Shown here in pieces: positions 7,321-24,327 of a stretch of 36,688 nt of DNA. Where the stretch lies: contig QIKW01000170.1 in assembly GCA_003231975.1 (NCBI GenBank), forward strand, positions 1-36,688. The letters are read 5' to 3'. Each line of letters begins with the position of its first letter. Position 1 is the stretch's first letter. The position numbers and the translations under genes were made by a program. The notes beneath the pieces were generated by a model. It had not been told where the DNA came from. It saw only the letters and a program-made list of their open reading frames with translations, and made no database searches. Origin of the DNA: Acidimicrobiia bacterium. Its GTDB lineage: Bacteria; Actinomycetota; Acidimicrobiia; Acidimicrobiales; SZUA-35.

Positions 7321-8346
7321 ATGGCGCGAATTGCGGTCGTTGGCTGCGGTTATTGGGGTGTCAATCATGTCCGGGTCTACCGGAATCTGCTCGGCGCGGG
7401 CGCCGTTGTAGCGGTTGACCCCGATCAACAAGGACTCAACCGAATAAGGGATCTTTTCCCTGAGGTTGAAGTCTCAACCGATTATGCAAGCATCCTGGAC
7501 AAGGTGGACGCGGTGGTGCTGGCCACCCCACCCAAAACTCATGCCAGCTTGGCCGAGGCGGCGCTTCGAGCTGGGTGCCACGTGCTGGTCGAGAAGCCGC
7601 TGGCTTGCAGCACCGTCGAAGCCGAGGGCTTGATTGTGGCTGCCCACCGAGCGGGCGTGATCTTGATGACCGGCCACACCTTTGAATACAACCCAGCGGT
7701 TTGGAAGCTGCGTGACATCGTCCGGTCGGGGGAGCTTGGCCAGGTCTGTCACATAGATGCGGCCCGCCTCAACCTTGGGCGTTACCAAAGCGACGTGAAC
7801 GTGTTCTGGGATCTCGCCCCCCACGACATCTCCATAATGAACTACTTGCTCGATGCCGCTCCAACCTCGGTAATGGCGTGGGGCAGGCACAACGAGCCCG
7901 TGCCGTTGGAAGACATCGGCTGCCTCCGACTGGAGTATGGCGACATCGGGGTCAGTGGCCAGGTGCATGTAAGTTGGCTCGACCCCAGAAAGGTTCGGCG
8001 GGTAACGGTCGTTGGCACCAAGAAGATGGCTGTGTATGACGACCTTGATGTTGATGAGCGAATCAAAATTTATGACAAAAGCATCGAGTTCGGAAACGAC
8101 GAACCATGGTTTGGTGGCTCGGTTGACTATCACTATGGCGGCACCGAGGCTCCTTACATAGACTTTGACGAACCGCTGAAGTTGGAAGGCCAAGCTTTCC
8201 TGGCCGCAATCGCCACTGGCACGCCACCGCAATCTGACGGTTGGAACGGGCTCAATATTGTGCGGGTCCTTGAAGCAGCCGACGAGTCACTGCGCCTCAA
8301 ACGTCCGGTTGAGATAGCTGCTACCAGACCCTCGGTGGTGGTATGA
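7321..8346 (+). CDS. Gfo/Idh/MocA sugar-nucleotide dehydrogenase
   Basis: This 341-aa NAD(P)-dependent oxidoreductase probably oxidises a ring hydroxyl (often C3) of a sugar nucleotide. The Rossmann glycine motif VGCGYWGVNHV lies at residues 7-17, the catalytic EKP at 91-93, and the conserved WDLAPHDI further on; a C-terminal alpha/beta domain of the GFO/IDH/MOCA type follows. It is the first gene of the polysaccharide locus, with GGGAGG ten bases before the ATG. The next gene is a DegT aminotransferase that starts inside its stop codon (ATGA, 8343-8346). A 3-dehydrogenase followed by a PLP aminotransferase is the known WlbA-type route to 3-amino sugars, so I infer 3-keto formation followed by amination. 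The exact substrate is not shown. Confidence 0.9.
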   Translation: MARIAVVGCGYWGVNHVRVYRNLLGAGAVVAVDPDQQGLNRIRDLFPEVEVSTDYASILDKVDAVVLATPPKTHASLAEAALRAGCHVLVEKPLACSTVEAEGLIVAAHRAGVILMTGHTFEYNPAVWKLRDIVRSGELGQVCHIDAARLNLGRYQSDVNVFWDLAPHDISIMNYLLDAAPTSVMAWGRHNEPVPLEDIGCLRLEYGDIGVSGQVHVSWLDPRKVRRVTVVGTKKMAVYDDLDVDERIKIYDKSIEFGNDEPWFGGSVDYHYGGTEAPYIDFDEPLKLEGQAFLAAIATGTPPQSDGWNGLNIVRVLEAADESLRLKRPVEIAATRPSVVV

Positions 8347-9503
8347 GCCCTCGAACAGCAGCCGCCTCGGCTCCGGTCACAACTTCCAATGTGCCATTTT
8401 ACGATCTGGCACCCGCCCATGCTCCGCTACTTGATCAATTCGAGCGCACGTTCCGCGAGATCATAAAGAGCAGCGCTTTTATTGGCGGCCAGGCCGTTGA
8501 GGATTTCGAGGTCAGTTGGGCGGCGTATTGCGGGGTCAAACACGCGGTTGGGGTGGCCAATGGCACCGACAGTATTGAGCTGATTCTTCGGGGCCTTGGA
8601 ATCGGGCCGGGCGACGAGGTAATTGTTCCTGCCAACACCTTTGTGGCAACCGCCGAGGCCGTCCTTGCTGCCGGAGCGGTTCCCCGCTTTGTCGGGGTTG
8701 ATCCCGGAACGCTGCTGCTTACCGCAGACGAGGTCCGCACCGGGCTGCGAGCCAACACCGCTGCGATTATCGCGGTGCATTTGTACGGCCAGCCCGCCCC
8801 GATGGACGAACTTCACGCGGTCAGTACCGCGGCCGGGGTCGCCTTGATTGAAGATGCGGCCCAGGCCCACGGCGCAACCTGGGAAGGCAAGCCGGTTGGC
8901 GGCCTGGGAACCGCCGGGAGTTTCAGCTTTTACCCAGGCAAGAACCTTGGCGCATTGGGCGATGCGGGCATCGTGGTCACCAACGATGCGGCCCTGGCCA
9001 GCCGAGTGAGGATTCTGGCCAATCACGGAAGAGCCGCAGGCCATCACGACCACGCGGTGTGTGGCAGAAACAGCAGACTTGATGGCCTTCAGGCGGCCCT
9101 TCTCTCCTGCAAGCTGCCTCACCTTGACAGTTGGAATAGCGACCGTCGCCGTCTAGCGAAGCTTTACGAGCAGAGCCTGACAACTTCCGGAATCAGAATG
9201 GTCAAGCAAGACCCCCGAGCGGCTTCTGCATACCATCTGCTGGTTGGCCTTGTCGATGATCGAGACAACGTTCGTAAGAGCCTCGACCGGCGGGGCATCG
9301 GCACATCGATTCACTACCCGCTGCCGTGCCACCGCCAGCCCGCGTTTGGCGAGTTCTACGACGGCTACCTGCCAATCGTGGAGCGGGCCGCGGCTCGCAT
9401 TGTTTCGCTCCCGATCTATCCGGGAATGGCTGATAACGACGTAGGGCGCGTGTGCCAGGCCCTTCACGAGGTGATCGAGGGCGAAATCGAGGTGCAGCCA
9501 TGA
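8343..9503 (+). CDS. DegT/DnrJ/EryC1/StrS sugar aminotransferase
   Basis: This 386-aa PLP-dependent aminotransferase adds an amino group to a keto-sugar nucleotide. The PLP lysine is K200 in FYPGKNLGALGDAG. The cofactor-contact segment VGVANGTDSIELIL is near residues 66-79 and the Asp-containing LIEDAAQAHGA near 167-177. Length is normal for the family. Its ATG overlaps the stop codon of the Gfo/Idh/MocA gene and its own stop codon overlaps the next ATG, so it is translationally coupled on both sides. With the upstream dehydrogenase it most likely makes a 3-amino-3-deoxy sugar nucleotide, though C4 amination cannot be excluded. Confidence 0.93.
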   Translation: MSPRTAAASAPVTTSNVPFYDLAPAHAPLLDQFERTFREIIKSSAFIGGQAVEDFEVSWAAYCGVKHAVGVANGTDSIELILRGLGIGPGDEVIVPANTFVATAEAVLAAGAVPRFVGVDPGTLLLTADEVRTGLRANTAAIIAVHLYGQPAPMDELHAVSTAAGVALIEDAAQAHGATWEGKPVGGLGTAGSFSFYPGKNLGALGDAGIVVTNDAALASRVRILANHGRAAGHHDHAVCGRNSRLDGLQAALLSCKLPHLDSWNSDRRRLAKLYEQSLTTSGIRMVKQDPRAASAYHLLVGLVDDRDNVRKSLDRRGIGTSIHYPLPCHRQPAFGEFYDGYLPIVERAAARIVSLPIYPGMADNDVGRVCQALHEVIEGEIEVQP

Positions 9504-10810
9504 AGCTTGCGGTTTATGGCCTTGGGTATGTGGGGTCCGTCACTGCCGCCTGCCTCGCGTCTGGTGGTCACAACGTCTACGGGATCGACCTGGATCCCAC
9601 AAAGGTTGCCGGGATCCTGGCAGGCAAGAGCCCTGTCCTAGAACCGGGGCTTGACCAAATAATTGCCGCTTGCGTCGCTGATGGTTCGCTGAGCGCGTCC
9701 GACTCGGCGACAGACGTTCCCGTCGATACCGACCTGCACATGGTGTGCGTTGGCACTCCCAGCAATCCAAACGGGTCTCTCAACATCGACCAGGTGATGG
9801 CAGTAGCAGCCGAGATTGGCTCTCGGTTGGGAGACCACCCCTTCCCGGTGGTGGTGCTGAGGTCAACCATGCTGCCTGGTTCTGCCGAGGCCGAGATCGG
9901 CCCAATTGTGGAAGCCGCTTCCGGCCGGGTCATCGGTAAGAACCTCGGCTTGGCGTCCTGCCCCGAGTTTCTTCGGGAAACCTCCGCCATTGACGACTTC
10001 TTCACCCCGCCGTTCACCGTCGCCGGGGTAACCGATGACCAAACCCTCGGTCGGCTGAAAGAGTTGTTCTCCTTCACCGACGCTCCTTTTCACGCAACGG
10101 ATCTGCGCACGGCTGAGCTGATCAAGTACGCCTGCAACGCATTCCACGCCGTCAAGGTCGGCTTTGCCAACGAGATTGGCCGTTTCGCCAGGGCGGCTGG
10201 AGCCGACGGTCGCCAGGTCATGGAGATCTTCTGCGAAGACACCCAACTGAACATTTCACCTGCCTATCTCACCCCCGGGTTCGCCTTTGGCGGCTCTTGC
10301 CTTCCAAAGGACGTTCGCGCCCTCGTCCATCGCAGCCGAAGTCTTGACCTCGATCTTCCTCTGCTTGGCAGCGTGCTCGCCAGCAACGAACAGCATCTTT
10401 CCGGCGCGGTAGATCAGGTGCTTAGCACCGGCGCAGGCACGGTTGCCCTCCTCGGGCTGGCTTTCAAAACCGGCACGGATGACCTAAGAGAGAGCCCGTA
10501 CGTACGCCTCGCCGAGCAGCTGATTGGCAAGGGAATCGACCTCCGGGTGTGGGATCCTGATCTCAGGCGCGAGAGGCTGATTGGGCAGAACCTCAGCTTC
10601 GTCGATGAGACGCTGCCTCACTTGGCTCGGCTGTTGAAACCAGCTCCGGCCGATGCCATCGCCGGCGCCGAACTGGTTGTGGTAGGCACGAAACATCCAG
10701 ACGCCAGAGCGGCTGTGATTGAGGCCGACGTTCCGGTAATCGATCTGCGAGGAGATCTGGGGCTCTCTGATGATTGTGTTGACGGCGGATACGAAGGGGT
10801 GGCCTGGTGA
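9500..10810 (+). CDS. UDP-glucose/GDP-mannose 6-dehydrogenase family (AlgD-like)
   Basis: This 436-aa NAD-dependent enzyme oxidises the C6 hydroxyl of a nucleotide hexose to a carboxylate, giving a uronic acid. The N-terminal Rossmann motif is VYGLGYVG (residues 4-11), with VCVGTPS and CPEFLRE further in. The catalytic Cys is C267 in FAFGGSCLPKDVRAL, and TDDLRESP lies in the C-terminal domain. These features and the length agree better with GDP-mannose dehydrogenase AlgD than with UDP-N-acetylhexosamine dehydrogenases, which have GGHCIP. I cannot exclude UDP-glucose as substrate. ATG at 9500 is chosen because it overlaps the previous stop (ATGA) and starts directly at the Rossmann fold; an upstream in-frame start would add 16 unrelated residues. 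Confidence 0.92.
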   Translation: MKLAVYGLGYVGSVTAACLASGGHNVYGIDLDPTKVAGILAGKSPVLEPGLDQIIAACVADGSLSASDSATDVPVDTDLHMVCVGTPSNPNGSLNIDQVMAVAAEIGSRLGDHPFPVVVLRSTMLPGSAEAEIGPIVEAASGRVIGKNLGLASCPEFLRETSAIDDFFTPPFTVAGVTDDQTLGRLKELFSFTDAPFHATDLRTAELIKYACNAFHAVKVGFANEIGRFARAAGADGRQVMEIFCEDTQLNISPAYLTPGFAFGGSCLPKDVRALVHRSRSLDLDLPLLGSVLASNEQHLSGAVDQVLSTGAGTVALLGLAFKTGTDDLRESPYVRLAEQLIGKGIDLRVWDPDLRRERLIGQNLSFVDETLPHLARLLKPAPADAIAGAELVVVGTKHPDARAAVIEADVPVIDLRGDLGLSDDCVDGGYEGVAW

Positions 10811-12084
10811 CCAGGTCAAACAGTCAACCGCACGTTGTGATCCTGTTGGAGAACCTCCCGGTTTCTCGAGACCGCCGAGTATGGCGCGAGGCCGAGGCCT
10901 TGAGAGACGCAGGCTTCTTGGTCACAACCATCTGCCCTGCTGACGGCAACCGCCGGTCGGTAGAAGTTGTTGACGGCATCGAAGTGCGGTCTTTCAAACC
11001 GGCTCCAGAACCATCCACTGCTGCTGGGTTTGTTCGAGAGTACGGCACTGCTTTTGTTCGGATGAGCGCCGAGCTTCTGCAAGTGATGAGGGCGGGCCCA
11101 ATCCATGCCGTCCAGGCGTGCAATCCGCCCGACATCTTCTTTCCGCTTGCGGCCCTTCTGAAGCTCCGCGGGATTCCCTTCGTATTCGATCAGCACGATC
11201 TGACCCCAGAGCTATACGAAACCAGGTTTGGGCGCAAAGGCCTCACCTACTGGGTGCTTCAGAAGTGCGAACGATTGACCTATCTATTCTCGGCCAGGGT
11301 TGTATCAACCAACGCCTCGTATCGGTCGGTTGCCATCTCTCGGGGTTCCTTGAAACCCGAAAATGTTGTAGTTGTTCGAAACGGCCCAGAGCCTGTTTCG
11401 ATGCAGGCGGGCCCCGCCAATGCTGCCCTGAAAGGCAAGTTCGCACATCTGGTGGTGTGGATGGGAAACATGGGCCCTCAGGACGGTGTCGATCAGGCAC
11501 TCGAGGCTGTGCGCTATCTGGTGCACGACCTGGGTCGAACCGATTGTCGTTTTGTGTTTATTGGCAAGGGCGACGTGCTTGATGACCTGCGGTCAATGAG
11601 CTTCGGGCTCGGGATTGACGAATGGGTGCACTTCACAGGTTGGATCCCCGATGCCGAGGCGTTCTTGTACTTGTCAACAGCAACGCTTGGGCTAAGTGCT
11701 GACCCCCCTGGGCCCCTTAACGACAAGTCCACGATGAACAAGACTCTCGAATACATGTCTTTCGGGCTGGCAGTGGTTGCCCACGACCTAACCGAAACCA
11801 GGGCTTCGGCCGGCGATAGCGCCCTCTATGCCGACACAGGCGATCCGGCCGGCTTGGCCCGAGCAGTTTACCAACTGCTTGACGAGCCAGAGCGGCGGGA
11901 AGCGATGGGTCGCATCGGAAGGCAGCGAATTGTTGAAAGGCTCAGCTGGCCCCATCAACGGCAGGGGTATGTGGCCATGTATAAACGTCTGCTGGCCTTC
12001 AAGGGATCGGATCGGATACAGGCGGGTGCCGAAACAGAATCGACCAATCGGCCTAGCCAGGAAAGGCAGCCGGAGTTGACATGA
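10807..12084 (+). CDS. Glycosyltransferase family 4
   Basis: This 425-aa GT-B enzyme transfers a sugar from a nucleotide donor onto the growing lipid-linked repeat unit at the inner face of the membrane. The N-terminal half has the acceptor-side motif ENLPVSRDRRVWREAEALRDAG. The C-terminal half has the GT4 donor-site pattern: VWMGNMGPQDGVDQALEA, FIGKGD, VHFTGWIPDAEAFLYLSTA and the EX7E-like KTLEYMSFGLAVVAHDLTETR. The last 25 residues are variable and polar. The start is GTG at 10807, overlapping the upstream stop as GTGA, and its stop overlaps the next ATG. It is the only recognisable non-initiating glycosyltransferase in the locus, so either the repeat unit is very short or other transferases are encoded elsewhere. 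Confidence 0.92.
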   Translation: MTRSNSQPHVVILLENLPVSRDRRVWREAEALRDAGFLVTTICPADGNRRSVEVVDGIEVRSFKPAPEPSTAAGFVREYGTAFVRMSAELLQVMRAGPIHAVQACNPPDIFFPLAALLKLRGIPFVFDQHDLTPELYETRFGRKGLTYWVLQKCERLTYLFSARVVSTNASYRSVAISRGSLKPENVVVVRNGPEPVSMQAGPANAALKGKFAHLVVWMGNMGPQDGVDQALEAVRYLVHDLGRTDCRFVFIGKGDVLDDLRSMSFGLGIDEWVHFTGWIPDAEAFLYLSTATLGLSADPPGPLNDKSTMNKTLEYMSFGLAVVAHDLTETRASAGDSALYADTGDPAGLARAVYQLLDEPERREAMGRIGRQRIVERLSWPHQRQGYVAMYKRLLAFKGSDRIQAGAETESTNRPSQERQPELT

Positions 12085-13829
12085 GTAAACGCGGAAGACC
12101 GAGTGAGCGATCCAAGAAAAAGTCCGGAACTGCACTGAGAGAGGCGACCTTGACCGAGAATGTGGTAAGCGAGCGTAGGGCCAAACGAGCAAATGTTTCA
12201 GCGGCTGACGACAACGACGATGTTGTGGATTTGACCGATTCAAACGGGTCAGCCGCCGCAAAGTCCCAGAACGTCGACCGTAAGCAGCCAGCAGCGGACG
12301 GTACTCAAAATCCGGGAACCGCCAAGAAGACGACCACCCCAAAGGGGCCAGCCCCGAAGCTGGCCAACAGTAAGGCTCCCGCCAAGAAGGGGCCAGCGGA
12401 GAAGTCGCCGCCTAGAACCAAGGCCGATAGCCGCTCAGCTTCGAAACCACCTGTCACTAACCCGGAACGGCCAGCTTCGGCAAAGCGCTCGCCGTCCACC
12501 CAGGAATCGTCTACCGATAGGCGGCCGTCGGCCAACTCCTTGAACGGCTCAGCCGAACCAGTCAAAACCAAGGCTGGGTCACCCAAGGCAGACACATCTG
12601 GGTCGAGCAGTGAGAAATCATCCGGGGCCGCCCCCAAGGCCCTCCCCGCGGTCAGACGACAGCGAACCGATCCCTCCCCAACGATGTCTCCCCAGGCCCG
12701 GCGGGCCCGGCTCAAGCGGGATTCTCAAACCGCGTCGTGGGCCGATGCCGATTCGGTTGTCGAAGAGGCTCTTGTCTCGACCAAACCAACAAAGCGGCGT
12801 CCCATTCCTGCTCGGCTGGAGTCTGCCGTTGGCCGAACCGAGGTCGACACTCGAACTGATCTTGAGGCCGAGGAGACGACCGACACAGATGATCTGGCTT
12901 TGAAAGCTCGGTCGAGGGAAGACCTCGAGACCCTCCCAGACGACGACACTCAAGCGGTCGAGGCTGTTCAGCCAACTACGCCCGCGCTGCTCGACCAGAA
13001 GGCGCTCGATTCGTGGCCTTACCGCGGTGTTTCCCAGACCCCCAAGCCCAGGTCGATGAAACAGGTGATCGCTGCCATGGCCTTCGCTGGATTGCTAGGC
13101 ATCATCGGCGGGCTTGCTGGCTACTTCTACGCAGAGTCACAGCCCGACATGTACGGAGCCGAAGCTGAGGTAGTGCTCGAAACAGCGCGATCCCAGATCG
13201 ACAGGTTCCTGCAAACCCAGATTGCTGTGGCAGAAAGCCGGGCCGTTGCGGAAGAAACCTCGGCCGCAACGGGTATCCCAATTGAAGACCTCATCGAGGA
13301 GATGTCTGTCGACACAATCGCGGGAAGCCAGGTGATGTTGTTCAGGATTTCTGACGTTGATCGCACCGTCGCGATCGACGCTGTCAACGCGTGGGTCGAC
13401 GCCTACTTGTCTCGACTCACAATTGACAACTCGCCTGTGATTCGCCGAGTCTACGACAATAGGATTTCCCAGCTTCGTGAGGCCAGGGCTCTGATAGAGG
13501 ATGATCTCACCGTCTATGAACTGGCGAACGCCAGGGCAGACGTTCTCAGCCAAGTTCCTCCCTTTCCCAGCGAAGAGCGGCGCCTAAGCCTTGAATCTGC
13601 CGACCTTCAGAATCAGATTTCTGGGCTGGAGGCCCAAATCATCAATCTCGACGTCGCAACTCTGAACGAAGCTGAAGCGAAGATCCTGTCTCCCGGCTAC
13701 AGCCTGCCAGACCGGGTGGCTCCTGCGCCTATGCCAATGACCGCCCTCGGCATCCTGGCCGGGCTGGCAATCGCGGCGCTCGCCATATTTGGCCTTGGGC
13801 TTGTTCGCTCCAGCAGGGAGGCCGGATAA
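12081..13829 (+). CDS. Wzz-like polysaccharide co-polymerase with long disordered N-terminus
   Basis: This 582-aa protein has two membrane helices, about residues 329-349 and 553-575, enclosing a roughly 200-residue extracytoplasmic domain with a coiled-coil-like helix around 455-530. That is the topology of Wzz/PCP chain-length regulators. The extracytoplasmic start (GYFYAESQPDMYGAEAEVVL) is typical. Unusually, about 325 residues precede the first helix: residues 1-250 are rich in Lys, Arg, Pro, Ser and Ala with no recognisable fold, then about 255-305 is strongly acidic. There is no Walker-type kinase domain after the second helix. It overlaps the GT4 gene by ATGA; the polymerase starts four bases after its stop codon. 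Its role is to set chain length in a Wzx/Wzy pathway (inference from topology and context). Confidence 0.82.
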   Translation: MSKRGRPSERSKKKSGTALREATLTENVVSERRAKRANVSAADDNDDVVDLTDSNGSAAAKSQNVDRKQPAADGTQNPGTAKKTTTPKGPAPKLANSKAPAKKGPAEKSPPRTKADSRSASKPPVTNPERPASAKRSPSTQESSTDRRPSANSLNGSAEPVKTKAGSPKADTSGSSSEKSSGAAPKALPAVRRQRTDPSPTMSPQARRARLKRDSQTASWADADSVVEEALVSTKPTKRRPIPARLESAVGRTEVDTRTDLEAEETTDTDDLALKARSREDLETLPDDDTQAVEAVQPTTPALLDQKALDSWPYRGVSQTPKPRSMKQVIAAMAFAGLLGIIGGLAGYFYAESQPDMYGAEAEVVLETARSQIDRFLQTQIAVAESRAVAEETSAATGIPIEDLIEEMSVDTIAGSQVMLFRISDVDRTVAIDAVNAWVDAYLSRLTIDNSPVIRRVYDNRISQLREARALIEDDLTVYELANARADVLSQVPPFPSEERRLSLESADLQNQISGLEAQIINLDVATLNEAEAKILSPGYSLPDRVAPAPMPMTALGILAGLAIAALAIFGLGLVRSSREAG

Positions 13830-13833
13830 ACCG

Positions 13834-15264: not shown

Positions 15265-17351
15265 CTTTTTCACGTCGAGTTGCAGCAGGAACGGTTCTCG
15301 CGGGGGTGATCGGGCTGTTCGCAGCCTTTTGGTGGTATCCCTCGGATGCTCCCGACTCCGCATCAGCTACGCCGGCTTCCCGGGGCGAGCGCACCTCCAC
15401 CAGCTCAACGACTCCACTGCCAACAACCGAACGCCCGTCACCACCGGTCACCGTTGGCCAGGCAGACGGGCAAGACCCGTTGGCCGCCCCGGTTCATCCA
15501 ATTGCCGCGCAAGGGCCATTCGCGGAAGCTGAAAGGTACGTGCTGGTTACGTGGGACTATTCTGCCCTCGACGCCACTGCCTATGAGATCGAGCGAGACG
15601 GCGAAATCGTCGGAACAGTGGAGATAGATGACCAGCCGTGGGACGACATGGCGTGGCGAGATGACTCGGCAGCTCCGGGGAGTCGCGAGTATCGCGTTAG
15701 AGCCGTTTCTGGTTCTGACAGCGGGCCCTGGTCAGCAACGGCCTCGCTGATTGTTCGATCTGAAAGCGACGTCGGCCAGACCTACCTGGTCGACAGCTAC
15801 ACCGGCACCGACCTGCAACGGGCGGAGGCTGCGGTTGAGGCGGCGTCGACCGCGGGCGGAGGCATTGTGGCCTTCGGTGCCCGTACCTATGTGTTCAACA
15901 ACCCGCTTCAGGTTTGGGGCAGCAACGTGGTGCTCCAGGGCGCCGGAAGAGACCAAACCATTCTGGCCATAGGTTTCGAAAACGGCACAGAGTCTTGTGG
16001 CGCCGTGGCACCCTTGATTCAGTTTAGAGGAGAGCTGGAGCCTGTGGCCGGGGCCCTTCTGATGGCTCCTGTACTTGCGGGCCAGCGAACCGCGCTGATC
16101 TCGAATGCGAGCCTGCTGGCCGTCGGCGACGTAATTGCGCTTGACGCCGTTATCGGTCAGAGGCCAACGGGCTTCTTTGAACAAGAAGGGATCGTGCAGG
16201 ACCCCGGGGCGGGGATTGACCAGCGAAACCCCTGGGACGCCAACGAGGTTGTGTCAATCTCAGGAGACGAGGTCACCTTCGCATCAATGTTTGTCCGGGA
16301 GATCCCCCAAGAAGCAGAGATCTGGCGTTACCAAAACGGTCGAGGCAACGGGATAGAGCTTCTGACTGTCCAAGGAATCGGACCAGATGACCTCAGCTAC
16401 CACCGGCTGGTCGACGTGATCGACCAGGTCGAGTGGCGCCTGGCTGACGTCACCGCTCGGTGGGCCAACCGAACCTTCATCGATGCCAGCGGTTACGACA
16501 TCCGGTTGGTTGGGTTCACCGGAATTGAGGGAGGGGCCAACGGCTATCAACTTGAGGCCTGCAAGTACAAGTTGGGTTTCGCCACCGCCGCTGACGTTTA
16601 TGTGCTCGATGCCCAGTTGGGCTCGATGGAAAACGATCTGATCATGAGCTTGCTCACCGTTCAGTTGACGAATCGGATGGTCGTGCGGAATTCAACCTTC
16701 GGCGGCAGCCGTACTTACGGTTTCAACGAGCACGGTGGGGGCAGCATTGGCTTGGTCGTTGAGAACAATTTCTTCTCCACCGGGCCGAATGGTTGGGCCG
16801 GAATCCTTCTCGGCAACGACACTTGGGGATTCGGTGGCGACACCGCCATTCGCAACAATAGGTTCGATGGCAATGTGAACGATGTCCTAATGCTTGAGAA
16901 TCCGTTCAACGTCTCAATCGTCAACAATCAAAGCAATGGCTGCCTTGAGGCCTGCATAGTTTGGTCCGGCTGGGGAGGATTTTGGAGCGGTTACACGCCG
17001 ATTGAAGACCCAACTTTGTGGGGGTCGGCTCGCCTGCTTCTCCAGGGCAACGTGTTCACCCAGGCGGCACGGGGCCTGGATCTGGGGAACGAAGAGAGCT
17101 CTGGCTACCCCTACACCGGCATCCGCGATGTTGTGATTCTTGACAACATCGTTCAGAGCGGGGGCGACGCCTTGAAGATTTATGGCGACGAGGCAACCAC
17201 CAGCCGGGTAGTTGTAAACGGAAACGAATTCGGCGGCGCCGTCGACTGGCCATCTGACGCCCCCGAGTTTGTGTGGGCGCAGAATCCCTCAGATCCGAGA
17301 CCGGAAATCCCAGGCTGGGCGTCGCCGTATCAGGACTGGGAACGCCCGTGA
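15261..17351 (+). CDS. Exported FN3 plus right-handed beta-helix protein
   Basis: This 696-aa protein starts with a basic stretch and a hydrophobic segment (about residues 6-25), which is a signal peptide or membrane anchor. A Ser/Thr/Pro linker (about 28-66) follows. A fibronectin-III-like domain covers about 80-170 (VLVTWDYSALDATAYEIERDG, YRVRAVSGSDSGPWS). The rest is a pectate-lyase-like beta-helix, with Asn-rich turns such as VVENNFFSTG, IRNNRFDGN and VVNGNEFGG. Such folds cut, epimerise or bind polysaccharides. Next to an AlgD-like dehydrogenase it recalls the periplasmic mannuronan epimerase AlgG, but I cannot identify catalytic residues. It sits between polymerase and initiating transferase and overlaps both (ATGA 15261, GTGA 17348), so it is an integral part of the pathway: a lyase, epimerase or binding protein acting outside the membrane. 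Confidence 0.85.
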   Translation: MTFSRRVAAGTVLAGVIGLFAAFWWYPSDAPDSASATPASRGERTSTSSTTPLPTTERPSPPVTVGQADGQDPLAAPVHPIAAQGPFAEAERYVLVTWDYSALDATAYEIERDGEIVGTVEIDDQPWDDMAWRDDSAAPGSREYRVRAVSGSDSGPWSATASLIVRSESDVGQTYLVDSYTGTDLQRAEAAVEAASTAGGGIVAFGARTYVFNNPLQVWGSNVVLQGAGRDQTILAIGFENGTESCGAVAPLIQFRGELEPVAGALLMAPVLAGQRTALISNASLLAVGDVIALDAVIGQRPTGFFEQEGIVQDPGAGIDQRNPWDANEVVSISGDEVTFASMFVREIPQEAEIWRYQNGRGNGIELLTVQGIGPDDLSYHRLVDVIDQVEWRLADVTARWANRTFIDASGYDIRLVGFTGIEGGANGYQLEACKYKLGFATAADVYVLDAQLGSMENDLIMSLLTVQLTNRMVVRNSTFGGSRTYGFNEHGGGSIGLVVENNFFSTGPNGWAGILLGNDTWGFGGDTAIRNNRFDGNVNDVLMLENPFNVSIVNNQSNGCLEACIVWSGWGGFWSGYTPIEDPTLWGSARLLLQGNVFTQAARGLDLGNEESSGYPYTGIRDVVILDNIVQSGGDALKIYGDEATTSRVVVNGNEFGGAVDWPSDAPEFVWAQNPSDPRPEIPGWASPYQDWERP

Positions 17352-18019
17352 CAGAAGCGTTCTCTTCCTCGGTGGGTCCAGCATCAATAGCCTCTGTCAC
17401 CCGGCAGAAGGGCATCGCCTTGCTGGTTAAGCGGGTCTTCGACGTTGTCGGGGCCAGCATTGCTTTGGTTGTTCTGTTCCCGTTGCTAGTCCTAGCAGCA
17501 ATTGCGGTCAAGGTTGACAGCCCCGGTCCCGTGCTCTTTCATCAGCGCCGGGTTGGGCGAAACGGGCGCCATTTTACGATTCACAAGTTTCGGTCCATGG
17601 TGGCCGACGCCGATCCGGCCGTTCACCAGGAATACCTCAAAGCTCAAGCCGCCGGGTCTCAAGAGCACTACAAGGTTGAAGACGACGATCGCATCACTCG
17701 GATCGGAGATCTCTTCCGGCGGCTCAGCATCGATGAGCTGCCCCAGCTGTGGAACGTGATCGTTGGCCAGATGAGCTTGGTCGGGCCCCGCCCCGACGTG
17801 CCCTACTCGCTTGAGCAGTACGAGGCGCACCATCATCGTCGCTTCGACGTTTTGCCCGGGCTCACCGGGCTGTGGCAGGTAAGTGGACGAAGCGAGCTTT
17901 CGCTTCAGGAAATGCTCGAGCTTGACATCAGGTATGTGGATGAATGGTCCTTTGCCATGGATCTTCGACTTCTGATGCGCACGATTCCGGAACTGTTGCG
18001 GCCGGAGCGTGCCGGTTAG
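17348..18019 (+). CDS. Initiating sugar transferase (monotopic phosphoglycosyl transferase)
   Basis: This 223-aa protein is of the bacterial sugar transferase family (WcaJ/PglC-like catalytic core without the large N-terminal membrane domain). It moves a sugar phosphate from a nucleotide onto undecaprenyl phosphate and so starts the repeat unit. A hydrophobic re-entrant helix lies near residues 28-52 and is followed by SPGPVLFHQRRVGRNG, KFRSM, the catalytic-region DELPQLWNVI, SLVGPRP and LPGLTGLWQVSGRS. The GTG at 17348 overlaps the previous stop (GTGA); an open frame reaches further upstream but lies inside the beta-helix gene. The next gene follows after 39 bp, the widest gap so far in the locus. 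Confidence 0.93.
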   Translation: MTEAFSSSVGPASIASVTRQKGIALLVKRVFDVVGASIALVVLFPLLVLAAIAVKVDSPGPVLFHQRRVGRNGRHFTIHKFRSMVADADPAVHQEYLKAQAAGSQEHYKVEDDDRITRIGDLFRRLSIDELPQLWNVIVGQMSLVGPRPDVPYSLEQYEAHHHRRFDVLPGLTGLWQVSGRSELSLQEMLELDIRYVDEWSFAMDLRLLMRTIPELLRPERAG

Positions 18020-18058
18020 AGCAGATCTTGGAAGGCCGTTTATTGACTGGAGGGGTTC

Positions 18059-19057
18059 ATGAAGTTGGAAAACAAGAGGGTCATCGTGACCGGAGGGGCT
18101 GGCTTCATCGGCAGCCACGTTGTTGATGTGCTGGTCGAACAAGAAAATCAGGTTGTCGTAATTGATGACTTCAGCGTTGGCTCGATCGGCAACCTGTCAC
18201 GCCACGAAGGCAGTGACGCGGTGATCGTACACACCGCTGATATCTGCGACCGAGACGCAATGGATGAGTTGGTAACAGACGCAGATCTAGTCCTCCACAT
18301 GGCGGTTGCCTGCCTGCGGACCTCGTTGAACGAGCCTGTGGCGGTTCACGAGGTGAACGCAACCGGCACCCTCAACGTCTGTCTGGCCGCGGCCAGAAAC
18401 GACGTTGGTCGCCTGGTGTATGTGTCTTCGTCCGAAGCTTACGGTTCAGCTCAGTTTGTGCCAATGGACGAGAATCACCCCCAGGACCCAACCACTGTTT
18501 ATGGCGCAACCAAACTGGTCGGTGAGGGTTACGCCCTGGCAATGATGCACACCTACGGCCTCGAAACAACGGTCATTCGGCCGTTCAACAGTTACGGCCC
18601 GCGGGAGCACCACACCGGAAAGAGGGCAGAGGTGATCCCAAAGTTTGTGCTCAGAACCATGGCTGGTGGGCGTCCAGTCATCTTTGGAGATGGTTCGCAA
18701 ACTAGAGACTTCACCTGGGTGCCAGACACCGCGCGCGGAATCGTTGCTGTGTGTGAGTCTGACAAGCTGGTTGGCGAGCGGGTGAACGTGGCCAGGGGCC
18801 AAGAGGTGTCAATCGCCCGAATCGCCAGGCTGGTTCTCGACGCGCTTGGCCTGCCAGACGATCAGCCCGAATTCAGCGACCCCCGCCCCGGAGACGTAGA
18901 CCGGCACTATGCCGACACCACCAAAGTTGAGGGTTCAACCGGCTGGAGTTCATTGGTCTCAATCGAGGACGGGCTGCGGCGCTATATCGAGTGGGTGAAG
19001 TGCCAGGAGATCGATCCGGCTGCCTGGTTAGAAGCAGAACAGCTTCGCAATTGGTGA
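18059..19057 (+). CDS. NAD-dependent sugar epimerase/dehydratase (extended SDR), first copy
   Basis: This 332-aa extended short-chain dehydrogenase acts on a nucleotide sugar. TGGAGFIGSHVVD (residues 11-23) binds NAD. The Ser/Tyr/Lys triad is visible as SSSEAYG and YGATK, and VIRPFNSYGPRE is typical of the family. It could be a 4-epimerase, 4,6-dehydratase or decarboxylase; sequence reading alone does not decide. A start at ATG 18059 is supported by a strong GGAGGGG shortly upstream, and the 39-bp gap makes this the most likely place for independent translation or an internal promoter. The C-terminal tail (residues 312-332) extends slightly beyond the usual end. Confidence 0.9.
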   Translation: MKLENKRVIVTGGAGFIGSHVVDVLVEQENQVVVIDDFSVGSIGNLSRHEGSDAVIVHTADICDRDAMDELVTDADLVLHMAVACLRTSLNEPVAVHEVNATGTLNVCLAAARNDVGRLVYVSSSEAYGSAQFVPMDENHPQDPTTVYGATKLVGEGYALAMMHTYGLETTVIRPFNSYGPREHHTGKRAEVIPKFVLRTMAGGRPVIFGDGSQTRDFTWVPDTARGIVAVCESDKLVGERVNVARGQEVSIARIARLVLDALGLPDDQPEFSDPRPGDVDRHYADTTKVEGSTGWSSLVSIEDGLRRYIEWVKCQEIDPAAWLEAEQLRNW

Positions 19058-19089
19058 AAAGCACTATGGCTTACGAGCGGGAGACGGGT

Positions 19090-20061
19090 ATGGATCTGGA
19101 AGGTCGAGTGATTGCGGTCACCGGCGCGGCCGGGTTCATTGGTTCCCACGTGGTTGCCTGCTTGGCTCAGCGAGGGGCAACGGTGGTGGCGGTAGATCCC
19201 GGCCCCGGCTGGCGAACCCACTTTCATCAGACCCTTAGTCGTGCAAACGTAACCCTCGTCCCAACCGACCAACCGTGGCCAAGCGCCAGCTTTCATTCGG
19301 CTATCAGTGACGAAATAGACAGCGTGGTCCACCTCGCCTACGCCGAGCCCCGGTCCAGCAACGATCTGCAGGTGGCTCATGATGAGTATCTGCACAACGT
19401 TCTTGGCACTATCGCGTTGTTGGAATCCTTGCCCTCCTCTGTGCACACCATGGTGTTTGCCAGTTCGGCTCTGGTGTACGGCGCGGGTGGAGGGTCCGCC
19501 TTCTTTGAGTCCGGACCAACTGCCCCGGTGAACGATTATTCAATGGGGAAGCTGGCGATCGAGCGAGTGCTGACCGACTGGGTTGACCGTTCGCGAACAG
19601 CTGTGGCCCTTCGCCTCTCAACCGTTTATGGACCAGGCGAAACAGTGGCCCGTGCCATCCCGAACTTCATCAGGAGGTCGCTGGCTGGCCAGGCCTGCCA
19701 GGTTGGAATTGGGGGAGACATGCGAGACTACGTTGCCGTTCAAGACGTCGCGGCGGCCGTTGCCTGCGCGGTGGGGAACCGAAACCCATCCGCCCCTTTC
19801 CTCGTCGCCAACGTCGGCACCGGCATCGGCACCCGCACCGACGATTTGGCTGAACTAACCAAGGCTGCTGTCGGCAGCACGGTTCCAGTTGAGGTTGGGA
19901 CTGGCGGGCGGGATCCGATCGAGATCGTCTGCAATCCAGATCGGGCTGCAGCCGAGCTTGGCTTTCGGGCAGAGATTTCCCTTTCGGCAGGGATTCAGGA
20001 CGAGATCAACTGGTTCCGCCAGCACCCCGAACTGTGGCAGAAGGAGTCGGCTGCCTCATGA
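19090..20061 (+). CDS. NAD-dependent sugar epimerase/dehydratase (extended SDR), second copy
   Basis: This is a second extended SDR of 323 aa directly after the first. It has TGAAGFIGSHVV near residues 9-20, SSALVYG, the YxxxK pair in DYSMGK, and LRLSTVYGPGE. The two copies are clearly different, so this is not a recent duplication and they probably catalyse different steps. I chose ATG at 19090 because GGGAG lies about six bases upstream and the conserved fold starts there; ATG at 19066 would add eight residues, and a frame open to 18991 lies inside the first SDR gene. The stop overlaps the flippase start (ATGA, 20058-20061). Its Gly-rich loop and substrate region give no clear substrate clue. 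Confidence 0.88.
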   Translation: MDLEGRVIAVTGAAGFIGSHVVACLAQRGATVVAVDPGPGWRTHFHQTLSRANVTLVPTDQPWPSASFHSAISDEIDSVVHLAYAEPRSSNDLQVAHDEYLHNVLGTIALLESLPSSVHTMVFASSALVYGAGGGSAFFESGPTAPVNDYSMGKLAIERVLTDWVDRSRTAVALRLSTVYGPGETVARAIPNFIRRSLAGQACQVGIGGDMRDYVAVQDVAAAVACAVGNRNPSAPFLVANVGTGIGTRTDDLAELTKAAVGSTVPVEVGTGGRDPIEIVCNPDRAAAELGFRAEISLSAGIQDEINWFRQHPELWQKESAAS

Positions 20062-21395
20062 GTAACCAGATGCGAGACATCCCGCCTCGCCCCTCGATCA
20101 TTCGAACCAGGCGCTCGATGAAGGAGAACACGCTCTGGAGCATGTCAGGAGAAGGGGTACGAATGATCTCGGGGCTGGGGGTGTTCGTAATTCTCAGTCG
20201 TCTTTACGAGCCGGCACAGTTCGGAGCCCTGGTGGCGGTAACGGCTCTGTTTGAGTTCTTGCTTCCCCAATCCAGCCTTGGTTCTGGATGGCTGTTGCTC
20301 AAGCGGGTCTCGGGCGATGGTTGGGACCCAGAGAGGGCCATGGCCCGAGCGACGGGCTCGGTGCTTGCCGGTGGATCGATTGTGTTCGTTGTGATGCTTC
20401 TGCTCCATCCGTATGTGTTGCCTCAGGTTTCCCTTGGGCTGTTCGCCGCGGTTGGTCTGATCGAACTGTTCCTCGTTGGTATTACCGAAGCCGCCTTGTT
20501 CTCGGCCCAGGCCATGGAGAACCTGAAGGTGAAGGCCGTTGTGTGGAGTGCTCACGGGATTGGGCGCCTCACTGCCGCAATTGGGCTGTTGTTGTTCACC
20601 GAGGAACCGTCGATGGAGCTTTGGGTTCTGATGCTCGGCATCGTTGCATTTGGGGTTGCAGTTCTGGCCAACGTCTCAGCGTTCGGTCGCCTGGTCGTGC
20701 CGGTGCCCCCGAAGTGGTCTGACTTTCGGCTGGGCCTCCCCTTTTCCATCGGTTTTGGGGCTGACCGTCTGCGTGAAACGGCCGACAACGTGATGTTGGT
20801 CAATGCCGACAAGGGCCTCGATGCCGGTTTGTACGCAGCCGGACGGCGCCTGATCAACGTGTTCAGCGTGCCAATTGTTGCCCTCACCCACGCGATGAAC
20901 GGGCGGTTCTTCGAGCTTGGGGCCAAATCTCGGCGAGCCACCGCCCGGCTAGCTGTGAAGGTCTGTGCCCTTGCAAGCGCCTACGGCTTGGTTGCTGCGC
21001 TGCTGTTGTGGTCTCTCTCAGACCAGATTTCATTGGTGCTGCCCGGAAGCTACCGAGAAACCAGTTCGGTTATAGCTCTGGCGGCGCTGCTGCCGTTGCT
21101 CTATGCACTCGAAGTGTTCCCGGCTACTGCCCTTACCGCCTCTGGCCTCCACCCGGTCCGCATCGTTCTCAACTTCGCAACTACGGGCCTGAACGTCTTT
21201 CTCAACATCTTATGGATCCCGACCTACGGGTGGGAGGGGGCCATCGGAGCCACGTTCGTCAGCGGCGGCCTGTATGCCGTTGCCCTCTGGACGGCGTTGG
21301 GAATAGCGGCGAGGCGAGAGCAGTCGGGCGATCCCGAAACGGGGCTGTCTCAGGCCGAAGGCAAGCCGACCCTGGAAGAGGTGGTGCCGTCATGA
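20058..21395 (+). CDS. Polysaccharide flippase (Wzx/MATE-like)
   Basis: This 445-aa protein has about twelve hydrophobic helices and the layout of polysaccharide biosynthesis exporters of the MOP superfamily. It would flip the lipid-linked repeat unit to the outer face for the Wzy-type polymerase. The N-terminus (residues 1-30) is polar and basic, then the first helix begins near MSGEGVRMISGLGVFVILSRLYEPAQFG, a typical opening for this family. ATG 20058 overlaps the preceding stop codon and its own stop overlaps the next ATG (21392). An alternative upstream start at 20034 lies in the SDR gene and is unlikely. Confidence 0.9.
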   Translation: MSNQMRDIPPRPSIIRTRRSMKENTLWSMSGEGVRMISGLGVFVILSRLYEPAQFGALVAVTALFEFLLPQSSLGSGWLLLKRVSGDGWDPERAMARATGSVLAGGSIVFVVMLLLHPYVLPQVSLGLFAAVGLIELFLVGITEAALFSAQAMENLKVKAVVWSAHGIGRLTAAIGLLLFTEEPSMELWVLMLGIVAFGVAVLANVSAFGRLVVPVPPKWSDFRLGLPFSIGFGADRLRETADNVMLVNADKGLDAGLYAAGRRLINVFSVPIVALTHAMNGRFFELGAKSRRATARLAVKVCALASAYGLVAALLLWSLSDQISLVLPGSYRETSSVIALAALLPLLYALEVFPATALTASGLHPVRIVLNFATTGLNVFLNILWIPTYGWEGAIGATFVSGGLYAVALWTALGIAARREQSGDPETGLSQAEGKPTLEEVVPS

Positions 21396-22459
21396 GAACT
21401 GATGCTGTTAGCAACGAAGAGTGGGACGAGTTTGTGGGCTCCCAACCCGACGGCGATGTGGTTCAAACATCGGGCTGGGCTCAGGTTAAGTCTTCGGCAA
21501 TGGCAAGTGAGGTTGTTACCCTCCGCCGTGGCGGCAAGATTGTGGCAGGTGGCCAGGTCGCAGCCAGGAAGTTTGGGCCGCTGGCCGGGTTCGCCTACGT
21601 GCCATACGGCCCTCTCGGGTCTGTTCCCGCCGACCGGATAAACCTGATTGGGGATCTGGAGAAAGCGGCGAGGCGAATGGGCGCCCATGCACTGTTGGTG
21701 CAACCAGGCAGGCAGGACAACGAGCTTCCGGCTGCCCTTGCCGCCCGCGGTTATCGCGTTTCCAGAATGGATGTTGCAACCCCGGCTTCGGTGGTGATCG
21801 ATCTAACGCTCTCCAGCGACGTGCTACGGGGCAATCTGAACCGCAGTCGGAAGAAGAACCTCAAGAAGGCAACGAAGGCGGGGGTTAAGGTTCGGCGGGG
21901 CGACCGGGACGATCTGACAGTCTTTGCCGAACTTCACGAGCAATCAGCCAAGCGAAACGGGTTTGTGCCGATGTCGCTTGACTACCTTCACCGCCAGTGG
22001 GATGCACTTGAACCCAGCGGCAACCTGTTTGTTCTCTTTGCTGAGTTCGAAGGTGTGCCTGAAGCCGCTGGCCTTTTCATCGGGCTTGGGCCCAGGGTCG
22101 AGTTCAAACTGACGGGCTGGCGAGCCAACCAGGCCAGCTCGCGTCGCTGCCCGAACGACGCGCTTCAGTGGGATGCGCTGCTTAGAGCCAAGGAAGACGG
22201 CTACCTCGAATTCGACATGGGGGGTATGCCCCGCAATCACGCCGAGGCGGTACTTGCAGCAGGAGGCCAAGTGCCGACTGAGTTGGCCGAGACCGGCACA
22301 ACATTCAAGCTTGGATACGGGGGCGAGGTCCGAGTGTTTCCTCACTGCTACGAACGAATTCTAACCCCGCTTGGCCAACTGACCTACCGACTGCCGTCGC
22401 GCTTGCTCAGCGACGACGGAATCGGCGGCAAGGTCATCAACCTGCTTCGGAGATCCTGA
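21392..22459 (+). CDS. FemAB/FemX-like aminoacyl- or acyltransferase, first of pair
   Basis: This 355-aa protein resembles FemABX/GNAT-type transferases, which move amino acids from tRNA onto peptidoglycan precursors or acyl groups onto sugars. Visible signs are WAQVKSSAM near residues 29-37, the basic NRSRKKNLKKATKAGV before the second GNAT-like domain (FemX-like), and the late GYLEFDMGGMPRNHAEA. In polysaccharide loci such enzymes may add an amino acid or acyl group to an amino sugar, which would fit the DegT aminotransferase here; that link is inference. ATG 21392 overlaps the flippase stop (ATGA). A frame open back to 21008 is antiparallel in logic to the flippase and is not used. A peptidoglycan role is the alternative. 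Confidence 0.83.
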   Translation: MRTDAVSNEEWDEFVGSQPDGDVVQTSGWAQVKSSAMASEVVTLRRGGKIVAGGQVAARKFGPLAGFAYVPYGPLGSVPADRINLIGDLEKAARRMGAHALLVQPGRQDNELPAALAARGYRVSRMDVATPASVVIDLTLSSDVLRGNLNRSRKKNLKKATKAGVKVRRGDRDDLTVFAELHEQSAKRNGFVPMSLDYLHRQWDALEPSGNLFVLFAEFEGVPEAAGLFIGLGPRVEFKLTGWRANQASSRRCPNDALQWDALLRAKEDGYLEFDMGGMPRNHAEAVLAAGGQVPTELAETGTTFKLGYGGEVRVFPHCYERILTPLGQLTYRLPSRLLSDDGIGGKVINLLRRS

Positions 22460-22460
22460 C

Positions 22461-23561
22461 GTGTGCGCAACCGAGCCCACCTTGAAGCTGCTGCAAGACC
22501 ACAGCCCTGAAGCTGGCCCGCAGCCTGAGTTGGTGAACCCAACCAATGATCCTCGGTGGCACGATCTGGTCGAGAGTGGCGGTGGATTCTATTCCTCACC
22601 TCCCTGGCTGTCTGCCCTTGCCGACGGCTACAGGCTCCGGCCGCAGGGCCTGTTGCTGTCTGAGGCCGGTTCGCCCGCGGCCGGTGTGGCGTTCTGCTCG
22701 ATCAAGGACGGCAAGGGCAGGCGAACATCTGCTTTGCCGTTCAGCGACGCTGGCGATCCCCTGGGCCTGGCGACTCCCGAGCGTGCCGCCGAACTTCTTG
22801 GCCCGCTCCTTGAGCCAGGCGTCCCCTTCTCGATCAGGGTGGCCGATTCGCTGGTGCCTTCGGTTGCCAACGCGGGGCTGGGTCTCCTGGAACAGGGAAG
22901 GTTGGCATGGCATCGCGCCGAGCTGCCAGAAACCGGAGAGGAACTGTGGAGCCAGATAGCTTCGGGGGCTAGGCAAAACATCCGGAAGGCCCGAAAGGCC
23001 GATCTTGAGATCGAGGTTGGCAACGATGTCGCCACCTTGCTGGCGTTTAGGGATCTCCACGTTTCGCTACGGAAACGCAAGTATTCGATGTTGGCCCAGC
23101 CGACTGGGTTCTTCGAGGCGATCGGAAAGCACTTCGGCACAGAGGGCCTGCGTGTCGTGCTGGCCCGGCTTGACGGCGTGCCGGTTGCCGGTGTTGTGCT
23201 GCTCCGGTTCGCCGGCATCGCTACATACAAATTCAATGCATCAACCGAGCAGGCGAACCGAATTCGGGCCAACGATCTGGTGATGTGGCACAGCCTTGTC
23301 GAGGCTGTTGGGTGGGGTTGCCAAACATTTGACTTCGGCGTCAGCGATCTTGATCAGCCCGGCCTGATTCGCTACAAGCGAAAGTACGCGACCGATGAGG
23401 CGGCCATAGTTTCGTTAAGCAACGGGGTTACGCTTGACACACGGCGGGCCCGCAGTTTTGACGCCGTGCTTCCCAAACTCACCAAGGCCCTCACCTCGGA
23501 GCGATGCCCAACGGCTTTGACCTCTCGGGGTGGCGATCTCCTCTACCGATATTTCTGCTAG
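22461..23561 (+). CDS. GNAT/FemAB-like acyltransferase (CelD/BcsL type), second of pair
   Basis: This 366-aa protein is related in layout to the preceding gene and to the GNAT_6 acetyltransferases found in cellulose and exopolysaccharide clusters. Signs are WHDLVESGGGFYSSPPWLSAL near the N-terminus, ASGARQNIRKARKADLEIEV in the middle, and the final QTFDFGVSDLDQPGLIRYKRKYATDEA. GTG at 22461 lies one base after the previous stop codon, so it is coupled. It is the last gene of the polysaccharide locus; a weak 6-bp hairpin (TCAGCT/AGCTGA) follows before the convergent gene. Substrate unknown; it may tailor the same polymer as its neighbour. Confidence 0.82.
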   Translation: MCATEPTLKLLQDHSPEAGPQPELVNPTNDPRWHDLVESGGGFYSSPPWLSALADGYRLRPQGLLLSEAGSPAAGVAFCSIKDGKGRRTSALPFSDAGDPLGLATPERAAELLGPLLEPGVPFSIRVADSLVPSVANAGLGLLEQGRLAWHRAELPETGEELWSQIASGARQNIRKARKADLEIEVGNDVATLLAFRDLHVSLRKRKYSMLAQPTGFFEAIGKHFGTEGLRVVLARLDGVPVAGVVLLRFAGIATYKFNASTEQANRIRANDLVMWHSLVEAVGWGCQTFDFGVSDLDQPGLIRYKRKYATDEAAIVSLSNGVTLDTRRARSFDAVLPKLTKALTSERCPTALTSRGGDLLYRYFC

Positions 23562-23589: not shown

Positions 23590-24327
23590 TCACAACGGAA
23601 GCCTTGTGCCGTGAGGGGTTTGTCTCTCGCTATTGGTCCGCTGCTCAAAGGCGGCGGCTCCGGCAACCACATCGGTGTTCGAACAGCCCCCGTCGGCCAC
23701 TGTCTGGTAGGAAACGATCAGCGCGCTCGGCTGCACTTGCTTACCACCCGCCGTGATTGCCGCCAGGTTGGACCATCTGACACCAACTAACGGTTGGTCG
23801 CAATCGGCGAACACCTCAGACCAGACAATGGGCGTTGTGAGTCGGTCGGCGTCGACATAGAGATCTCTCACGACAGTTTCAACCAAAGTGCTGAGGTTGA
23901 TGATCGACCCCCGCCAATGGCCGGTTCCGGCCTGGGCGATCCTCAGCCGATACTTTGTGTTTGAGACCCAAGAATAGTTGAAGGTGTTGGCATTGCCAAG
24001 GGCCGAGATGAGCGGCGACCCAGAGCCGTTTAGCTCTCCGCCGCCGTCTGCTGGAGCGTTGTAGCCACCCCAGTTGGCTGCACCGTTCCCGGGGTAAGAG
24101 GGATGGTGCTGCAAGCCCAGGTGGCCCGCCCCCTTTGGCCTGGAGCCCTTCACGAATCCCGCTTGGAGGGCCCAGAAGTAGAGCTTTGGAACCCGAGGGG
24201 GCTTTGAAATTTCCAGGTCGGCGCTAACGACGACGAACTCAACGCTTGGCATCTCCCAGCGCAGATGAAACGAAGAGGCGCCGTTGCTTGAAGTTGGTTG
24301 GCCGGTGTTGCGGACTGGCTGTGCCAT
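23590..24327 (-). CDS. Hypothetical protein, Trp/Gly/Asn-rich
   Basis: I do not recognise this 245-aa protein with confidence. It has no signal peptide or membrane helix. The central part (about residues 40-130) is rich in aromatic residues, Gly and Asn, with GHLGLQHHPSYPG, NWGGYN and FNYSWVSNTKYRLRI, which reads like beta-strands of an all-beta domain and faintly recalls DUF3472-type proteins. The last 25 residues are polar and probably disordered. It converges on the polysaccharide locus with 28 bp between stop codons and is divergent from the small gene at 24367. A leaderless start is possible: CACGAT (24339-24334) lies six bases before the ATG. Coding is supported by length and codon use; function is open. 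Confidence 0.72.
   Translation of the reverse strand: MAQPVRNTGQPTSSNGASSFHLRWEMPSVEFVVVSADLEISKPPRVPKLYFWALQAGFVKGSRPKGAGHLGLQHHPSYPGNGAANWGGYNAPADGGGELNGSGSPLISALGNANTFNYSWVSNTKYRLRIAQAGTGHWRGSIINLSTLVETVVRDLYVDADRLTTPIVWSEVFADCDQPLVGVRWSNLAAITAGGKQVQPSALIVSYQTVADGGCSNTDVVAGAAAFEQRTNSERQTPHGTRLPL

Follow-up and report, generated by a model that had tools for sequence, protein, structure and literature searches.

A Wzx/Wzy-type exopolysaccharide locus of Acidimicrobiales with an AlgD-type dehydrogenase, a FemX-like protein and a predicted epimerase-related beta-helix protein

Gene content and conservation of the locus

The stretch of DNA analysed in this study (the window) is the 36,688-nucleotide contig QIKW01000170.1 of assembly GCA_003231975.1, which is contig C11 of a source genome of 3.7 Mb in 275 contigs. 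Positions 7321-23561 hold one Wzx/Wzy-type exopolysaccharide (EPS) operon of this Acidimicrobiales metagenome-assembled genome (MAG). Thirteen intact genes lie here on the plus strand, each as an uninterrupted frame. Neighbouring genes overlap by 1-79 nt at most junctions, and the sole gaps are of 39 nt and 1 nt; overlapping or nearly touching in this way, the genes therefore probably form one transcription unit. A preliminary description of the locus had listed sugar-nucleotide, assembly, beta-helix and FemAB-type genes, and all of them were found on this strand with unbroken frames. Pfam and NCBIfam models identified the Gfo/Idh/MocA, DegT, UDPG/MGDP dehydrogenase, glycosyltransferase family 4 (GT4), Beta_helix, Bac_transf and Polysacc_synt families, two epimerase-type short-chain dehydrogenases/reductases (SDR1 and SDR2) and two FemAB/Acetyltransf_6 proteins (FemAB1 and FemAB2). 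The starts of two genes were corrected, to ATG 21392 for FemAB1 and to ATG 9500 for the AlgD-type gene.

The assembly machinery begins with the catalytic domain of a phosphoglycosyl transferase (PGT), the predicted initiating sugar transferase (17273-18019; PF02397, 222 bits), which matched TIGR03025 over the C-terminal half only. The only ordinary glycosyltransferase is the GT4 protein (10807-12084; PF13692/PF13579), and its gene adjoins that of AlgD in most relatives. The Wzx-like flippase (20034-21395) exceeded the PF01943 cut-off marginally (28.3 against 28.2 bits) and is conserved in relatives. The multi-spanning Wzy-like polymerase (13789-15264) belongs to a conserved family (A4) and has at least eight transmembrane-like segments in a crude scan; the window protein had no Pfam match, and one relative gave a weak Wzy_C match (E 0.0084). 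The Wzz-like chain-length or co-polymerase protein (12081-13829) has a long disordered N-terminus, two transmembrane segments and no kinase domain; the window protein matched no family, and two relatives gave weak Wzz/GNVR matches (E 0.03-0.06). These Wzy and Wzz calls, made from topology, position and weak matches in relatives, are the weakest of the set. A very simple repeat unit had been expected, and one PGT and one GT4 were indeed present in every complete copy, which predicts a disaccharide repeat unless glycosyltransferases elsewhere contribute.

The suggestion that these genes serve one pathway was borne out by the gene order, which is kept across relatives. Loci L036 (JAOTVU) and L037 (JAHDFR) have the identical order of a minus-strand BTAD regulator and ligase followed by Gfo-DegT-AlgD-GT4-Wzz-Wzy-beta-helix-PGT-SDR1-Wzx-FemAB1-FemAB2, and L054 (CAMYLA) has the same order as the window from the regulator rightward. 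Partial copies were found in L035 (JAHEJM), where the contig ends on the right, and L053 (JAAETH), where it ends on the left; the order is thus seen in three complete and two truncated relatives, the named ones being mostly MAGs of Acidimicrobiia/Acidimicrobiales. Protein identities to these relatives were 33-66%, and the order therefore reflects conservation and not recent copying. The preliminary set had included two SDRs; SDR1 was present in all copies reaching that point, whereas SDR2 (18991-20061; an NDP-sugar SDR by Pfam) occurred in the window, L053 and L054 only, was absent from L036 and L037 and is optional. A congeneric genome (G001) had no AlgD-clade gene and no beta-helix protein at a meaningful score, and the distribution is therefore patchy.

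In other Acidimicrobiales, the usual companion of a Gfo-DegT pair is a hexapeptide acetyltransferase of the left-handed beta-helix (LbH) type; a PGT, Wzy and a MurJ-family flippase are often present too, and AlgD-GT4 is adjacent in some. In the common EPS family, AlgD-GT4 stands beside Gfo-DegT-PGT-LbH acetyltransferase (L046, L047, L048, L050, L051, L038 and L121), often with the MurJ-family flippase in place of Wzx, together with Wzy, and sometimes with FemAB2. The window locus is a rare variant of this EPS locus family.

The AlgD-type dehydrogenase and the beta-helix protein

The third gene of the operon (9500-10810) encodes an AlgD-type, GDP-mannose 6-dehydrogenase-like enzyme. Among PDB entries, the Pseudomonas aeruginosa GDP-mannose dehydrogenase (1mfz) scored 386 bits and the next match, a UDP-glucose dehydrogenase, 223 bits. 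In a tree with UDP-glucose dehydrogenases of the same order, the latter split off with a support of 1.0 and the window enzyme grouped with P. aeruginosa AlgD. Moreover, these two enzymes share the blocks LNIS..Y..PGFAFGGSCLPKDVRAL and N.FHA.K, which the UDP-glucose dehydrogenases lack; in general form the shared signature is LN(I/L/V)S..Y..PG..FGGSCLPKD(V/L)RA and N..HA.K. The enzyme had been described as AlgD-like, and that placement holds on all three grounds; identity as a UDP-glucose dehydrogenase was ruled out by the PDB scores and the tree. The enzyme would be expected to oxidise GDP-mannose. Elsewhere in the genome, two UDP-glucose dehydrogenase-type genes lie on contigs C17 and C35, and a mannose-1-phosphate guanylyltransferase (GDP-mannose pyrophosphorylase)-like gene lies on C35.

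The gene at 15261-17351 (PF13229) encodes a secreted or membrane-anchored protein with an Fn3-like domain and a right-handed beta-helix that resembles mannuronan C5-epimerases. An AlphaFold2 model built from 3 sequences was unusable (predicted local distance difference test, pLDDT, 52), and one built with 7 homologues reached pLDDT 80. In VIA-align comparisons of this model, AlgE6, AlgE4 and an alginate epimerase/lyase led with Z 26.5-25.1, the top five rows all being epimerases or epimerase/lyases; the best alignment, to AlgE6, had Z 26.5 and a root mean square deviation of 2.5 over 338 residues, and the lead was small, other beta-helix enzymes following at Z 24.9 and below. The modelled protein has an AlgE-type right-handed beta-helix fold.

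Direct searches were less informative, in that phmmer against PDB returned nothing and a profile matched AlgE4 and a pectin-lyase-like protein at E 0.001 only. A family of epimerases with the motif YG.DPH was assembled from a motif scan of the fetched loci, comprising the L052 protein (YYGLDPHD) and its relatives. When the 7-member beta-helix family was compared with it by hhalign, the match was 94.7% (E 6e-8), with RTYGFNEHGGGS aligned with the YG.DPHD segment, and with the motif masked it was 87% in the same register. Five beta-helix proteins lacking the motif gave 0.4-4.0% and the reversed profile 0.9%, and none of 20 column shuffles exceeded 1.2%. For L060 and L061, matches of 95-96% covered other regions of the family and stopped short of the motif; these two are not controls, because they were fetched as weak homologues of the beta-helix family. 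Taken singly, six of the eight epimerases aligned in register and two did not.

Residues Y486-G-F-N-E-H491 (codons at 16716-16733, plus strand) align in register opposite the YG(F/I)DPH motif of epimerases, and Y486, N489, E490 and H491 are kept in all seven family members. The strict motif YG(F/I)DPH(D/E) is replaced by YGFNEHG, with the Tyr and His kept. The motif is as defined in PMC8824271; in AlgE7, H154 is the proposed base and Y149 the proposed acid, and the D152N variant retains some activity (PMC8824271). By profile comparison, the beta-helix protein is a divergent relative of the mannuronan C5-epimerases. Together with the AlgD-clade enzyme, this relationship agrees with the alginate-like logic on a Wzx/Wzy route that had been noted for the locus.

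Amino-sugar genes and the FemAB proteins

The operon opens with a Gfo/Idh/MocA dehydrogenase that resembles UDP-GlcNAc 3-dehydrogenases (7321-8346; PF01408/PF22725). Its best NCBIfam match was the archaeal UDP-GlcNAc 3-dehydrogenase model NF040723 at 187.5 bits, against a cut-off of 450, which leaves it outside that equivalog. The next gene encodes a DegT-family aminotransferase of the sugar 3-aminotransferase class (8343-9503; PF01041, 361 bits), which scored 303 bits against QdtB, 290 against 2oga and 248 against WbpE, and 80 against 2fn6. In these comparisons the protein was nearest to the 3-aminotransferases (QdtB, 2oga and WbpE) and not to the 4-aminotransferases. SDR1 (18059-19057) is an extended NDP-sugar SDR of the LegB/UXS/epimerase-like kind with the motif SSSEAYG, in which a Glu stands where the aligned 4-epimerases of PDB carry Ala or Ser. 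Because of this Glu, a 4,6-dehydratase or decarboxylase activity is more likely for SDR1, and a role as a plain 4-epimerase is doubtful.

The last two genes encode FemAB-type proteins. FemAB1 (21392-22459; PF02388, 70.9 bits) is a FemX-like aminoacyltransferase homologue, for which the profile scored 99.9 bits against Staphylococcus aureus FemX (6snr). Its F305-K306 pair, which is invariant, aligns with F304-K305 of FemX; the pair was placed by its position after the D-GG block, the HMMER alignment ending before it. On these comparisons, FemAB1 is assigned to the FemABX family as a member with the predicted catalytic Phe-Lys pair. FemAB2 (22461-23561) is a double-GNAT protein of the BioF2/Acetyltransf_6 type (PF13480, 60.1 bits; TIGR03019, 57 bits) and matched the FemX profile at E 4e-5.

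The LbH acetyltransferase was found in none of the five FemAB1 loci and in about 20 of the 26 other Gfo-DegT loci (hypergeometric p about 0.003 by hand count, which overstates the case because a single locus type accounts for four of the five FemAB1 loci). In the source genome itself there was no WbpD-like LbH acetyltransferase, the LbH query giving only a partial match of 44.8 bits. FemAB1 is thus the likely N-acylating enzyme of a 3-amino sugar, as judged from gene occurrence and family membership. A strict exchange of FemAB proteins for the LbH enzyme was retained for FemAB1 only and was dropped for FemAB2, which must do something else, since it occurs together with LbH.

Two observations elsewhere concern N-acylation. 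In L053, a formyltransferase-family gene (9804-10463, minus strand) is convergent with Wzx where other copies hold FemAB1 and FemAB2, and may represent an alternative N-acylation. FemAB-type genes are also immediate neighbours of DegT aminotransferase genes in two loci that differ in other respects (L104:8521-10718; L105:5738-9633), consistent with amino-sugar acylation. A literature search combining FemAB, exopolysaccharide and aminoacyl-tRNA returned no paper.

Proposed pathway and related systems

Taken together, we favour, with moderate confidence, a locus that makes an exported heteropolysaccharide of a 3-amino-GlcNAc unit, perhaps aminoacylated, and mannuronic acid, which is polymerised by Wzy and modified at C5 outside the cell. 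The substrates, the order of the steps and the aminoacyl donor in this scheme are inferred, whereas the genes present and their synteny, the placement in families, the fold and the register of the motif are observed. The Gfo and DegT enzymes would convert UDP-GlcNAc, or a close NDP-HexNAc, to a 3-amino sugar, which would be N-acylated; the most likely enzyme for this is FemAB1, with aminoacyl-tRNA supplying the amino acid. The PGT would load the sugar phosphate, possibly reshaped by SDR1, onto undecaprenyl phosphate. AlgD would oxidise GDP-mannose, supplied by genes outside the locus, to GDP-mannuronic acid, from which the adjacent GT4 would add mannuronate. The lipid-linked disaccharide would then be flipped by Wzx, and Wzy would polymerise it together with the Wzz-like protein. 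The anchored beta-helix protein may modify chain uronates at C5 through Tyr486 and His491, as an epimerase-like enzyme or a lyase. The fuller proposal, in which a FemX-type enzyme aminoacylates the amino sugar from aminoacyl-tRNA during assembly of a Wzy-made polymer and its mannuronates are then C5-epimerised outside the cell with no alginate synthase, is speculative and, taken as a whole, unlikely.

Several findings weigh against the favoured pathway. The Gfo score lies far below the cut-off curated for its best-matching family, and SDR1 may be either a dehydratase or a decarboxylase. The argument that FemAB1 replaces the LbH enzyme draws on two lineages, and FemAB2 co-occurs with LbH in six loci (L038, L112, L114, L118, L121 and L124). 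The epimerase motif is degenerate, with N for D, E for P and G for D/E. Moreover, the structural alignments to AlgE proteins (334-338 residues) exceed the roughly 320 expected from the motif register; they are shifted by about one turn and do not place H491 on H154, and homology at the active site is therefore argued from the profile and not from superposition. Finally, relatives of the beta-helix protein occur in genomes G298 and G346 (71-85% complete), which have no AlgD-clade gene, and this weakens a strict link to mannuronate.

Other explanations of the same genes were considered. Gfo, DegT and the 6-dehydrogenase might form one WbpA/WbpB/WbpE-like pathway to a single 2,3-diamino-2,3-dideoxy-uronic acid, with no mannuronic acid involved. 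These genes adjoin one another in every window-type copy, and among PDB entries WbpE matches DegT closely, but the dehydrogenase belongs to the AlgD clade and scored only 31 bits against TviB. Furthermore, AlgD is elsewhere tied to GT4 and not to Gfo-DegT, sometimes on the opposite strand (L048, L050 and L051), and Gfo-DegT pairs occur without AlgD in L112-L120, all of which renders this pathway improbable. A second, somewhat unlikely alternative is that the beta-helix protein is no epimerase and instead cleaves polysaccharide as a lyase or depolymerase, or serves as a structural adhesin similar to tailspikes. Capsule lyases and tailspikes gave the best Foldseek E-values, an order generic for beta-helices; the RbmB lyase reached Z 24.7 in VIA-align, and a single active site can serve both lyase and epimerase reactions, as in AlgE7 (PMC8824271), the motif here being altered in any case. 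However, the highest VIA-align Z values belong to epimerases, and in the profile comparisons the YG.DPH family is matched specifically.

A somewhat better chance, though still short of probable, is given to the view that FemAB1 and FemAB2 are N-acetyltransferases using acyl-CoA, or modify peptidoglycan so that the polymer is anchored to it, without use of aminoacyl-tRNA. FemAB proteins as a family have varied functions; HfsK, which is FemX-like, takes part in holdfast polysaccharide biogenesis with a donor that is not known (PMC5362036), and FemAB2-like proteins adjoin LbH acetyltransferases. On the other hand, FemAB1 is closest to FemX and keeps the Phe-Lys pair, and it was found in 19 of 397 genomes of the order, a rarity at odds with a housekeeping role in peptidoglycan.

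The locus resembles alginate production (AlgD, Alg8/44, AlgG/AlgE; Pseudomonas and Azotobacter) in its precursor and polymer tailoring, having an AlgD-clade dehydrogenase and an exported beta-helix relative of the mannuronan C5-epimerases, but it is a Wzx/Wzy-type EPS locus with PGT, GT4, Wzx-, Wzy- and Wzz-like and amino-sugar genes and an altered epimerase motif. It is not classed as an alginate system because no GT2 synthase (Alg8) was found among the operon genes; nor was Alg44. Likewise, the altered motif keeps the beta-helix protein out of the strict mannuronan C5-epimerases. The view that no described system has exactly this set needs qualification, as the locus is no isolated oddity: it is a variant of the common EPS family, and the nearest described cluster found was wps-3 of Actinoplanes missouriensis (PMC13390465). 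Both have a Wzx/Wzy/Wzz-like set, a single GT4, DegT and a BioF2-like with another GNAT-fold protein. For wps-3, however, no Gfo, AlgD-type, beta-helix or SDR proteins are reported; that cluster is a predicted one, has a deacetylase and aromatic-degradation-type enzymes, and its mutant forms normal sporangia (PMC13390465). Caulobacter HfsK is likewise a FemX-like double-GNAT protein in exopolysaccharide biogenesis, but it is a single, c-di-GMP-regulated protein serving another polymer (PMC5362036). The 3-dehydrogenase and 3-aminotransferase pair is shared with WbpA/B/D/E and GnnA/GnnB, whereas the locus has no WbpD-type acetyltransferase or 2-epimerase and its dehydrogenase is of AlgD type. 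Orf11 of BD-12, also a FemABX-type enzyme, glycylates an amino sugar from Gly-tRNA, but in a small-molecule antibiotic and not a polymer (PMC12945691). A literature search combining C5-epimerase, Wzx and mannuronic acid returned no paper.

If the favoured pathway is true, mannuronate chemistry, that is, GDP-mannuronic acid supply and polymer C5 modification, would extend beyond synthase-type alginate to an actinobacterial Wzx/Wzy route. In addition, FemAB proteins, recurrent in EPS loci without a known function, would gain a role in donating aminoacyl groups to amino sugars. Candidate synthase-type alginate-like loci were also observed in Acidimicrobiales (L052:9142-19419, on G052:C230; L163:7287-14122; L164:369-4406; L165:8474-12510), with a processive GT2, a C5-epimerase-like beta-helix protein with the strict YG.DPHD motif and a nearby NDP-sugar dehydrogenase, which is of the AlgD clade in L052 and divergent in L163-L165. 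In L165, GT2 and epimerase are in one 1061-aa frame. The closest bacterial relatives of brown-algal C5-epimerases are reported to be actinobacterial (PMC11468063), and the window locus bears on the origin of the brown-algal alginate genes.

Around the operon, a 245-aa open frame to the right (23590-24327, minus strand) matched no family and may not be a gene, and no Rfam or tRNA features were found in the window. To the left, the conserved unit reaches to 4798 and takes in two divergent minus-strand genes. A BTAD/SARP-type transcriptional activator (6156-6950; PF03704, 70.7 bits), the probable regulator, is kept in divergent orientation in L035-L037 and L054. Beyond it lies a CapK/PaaK-like adenylate-forming ligase (4798-6159; partial NCBIfam matches of DVU_1553/PaaK type), with orthologues in the same position in L035, L036 and L037 (49-53% identity); in L070 the ligase gene adjoins GT4 and beta-helix genes.

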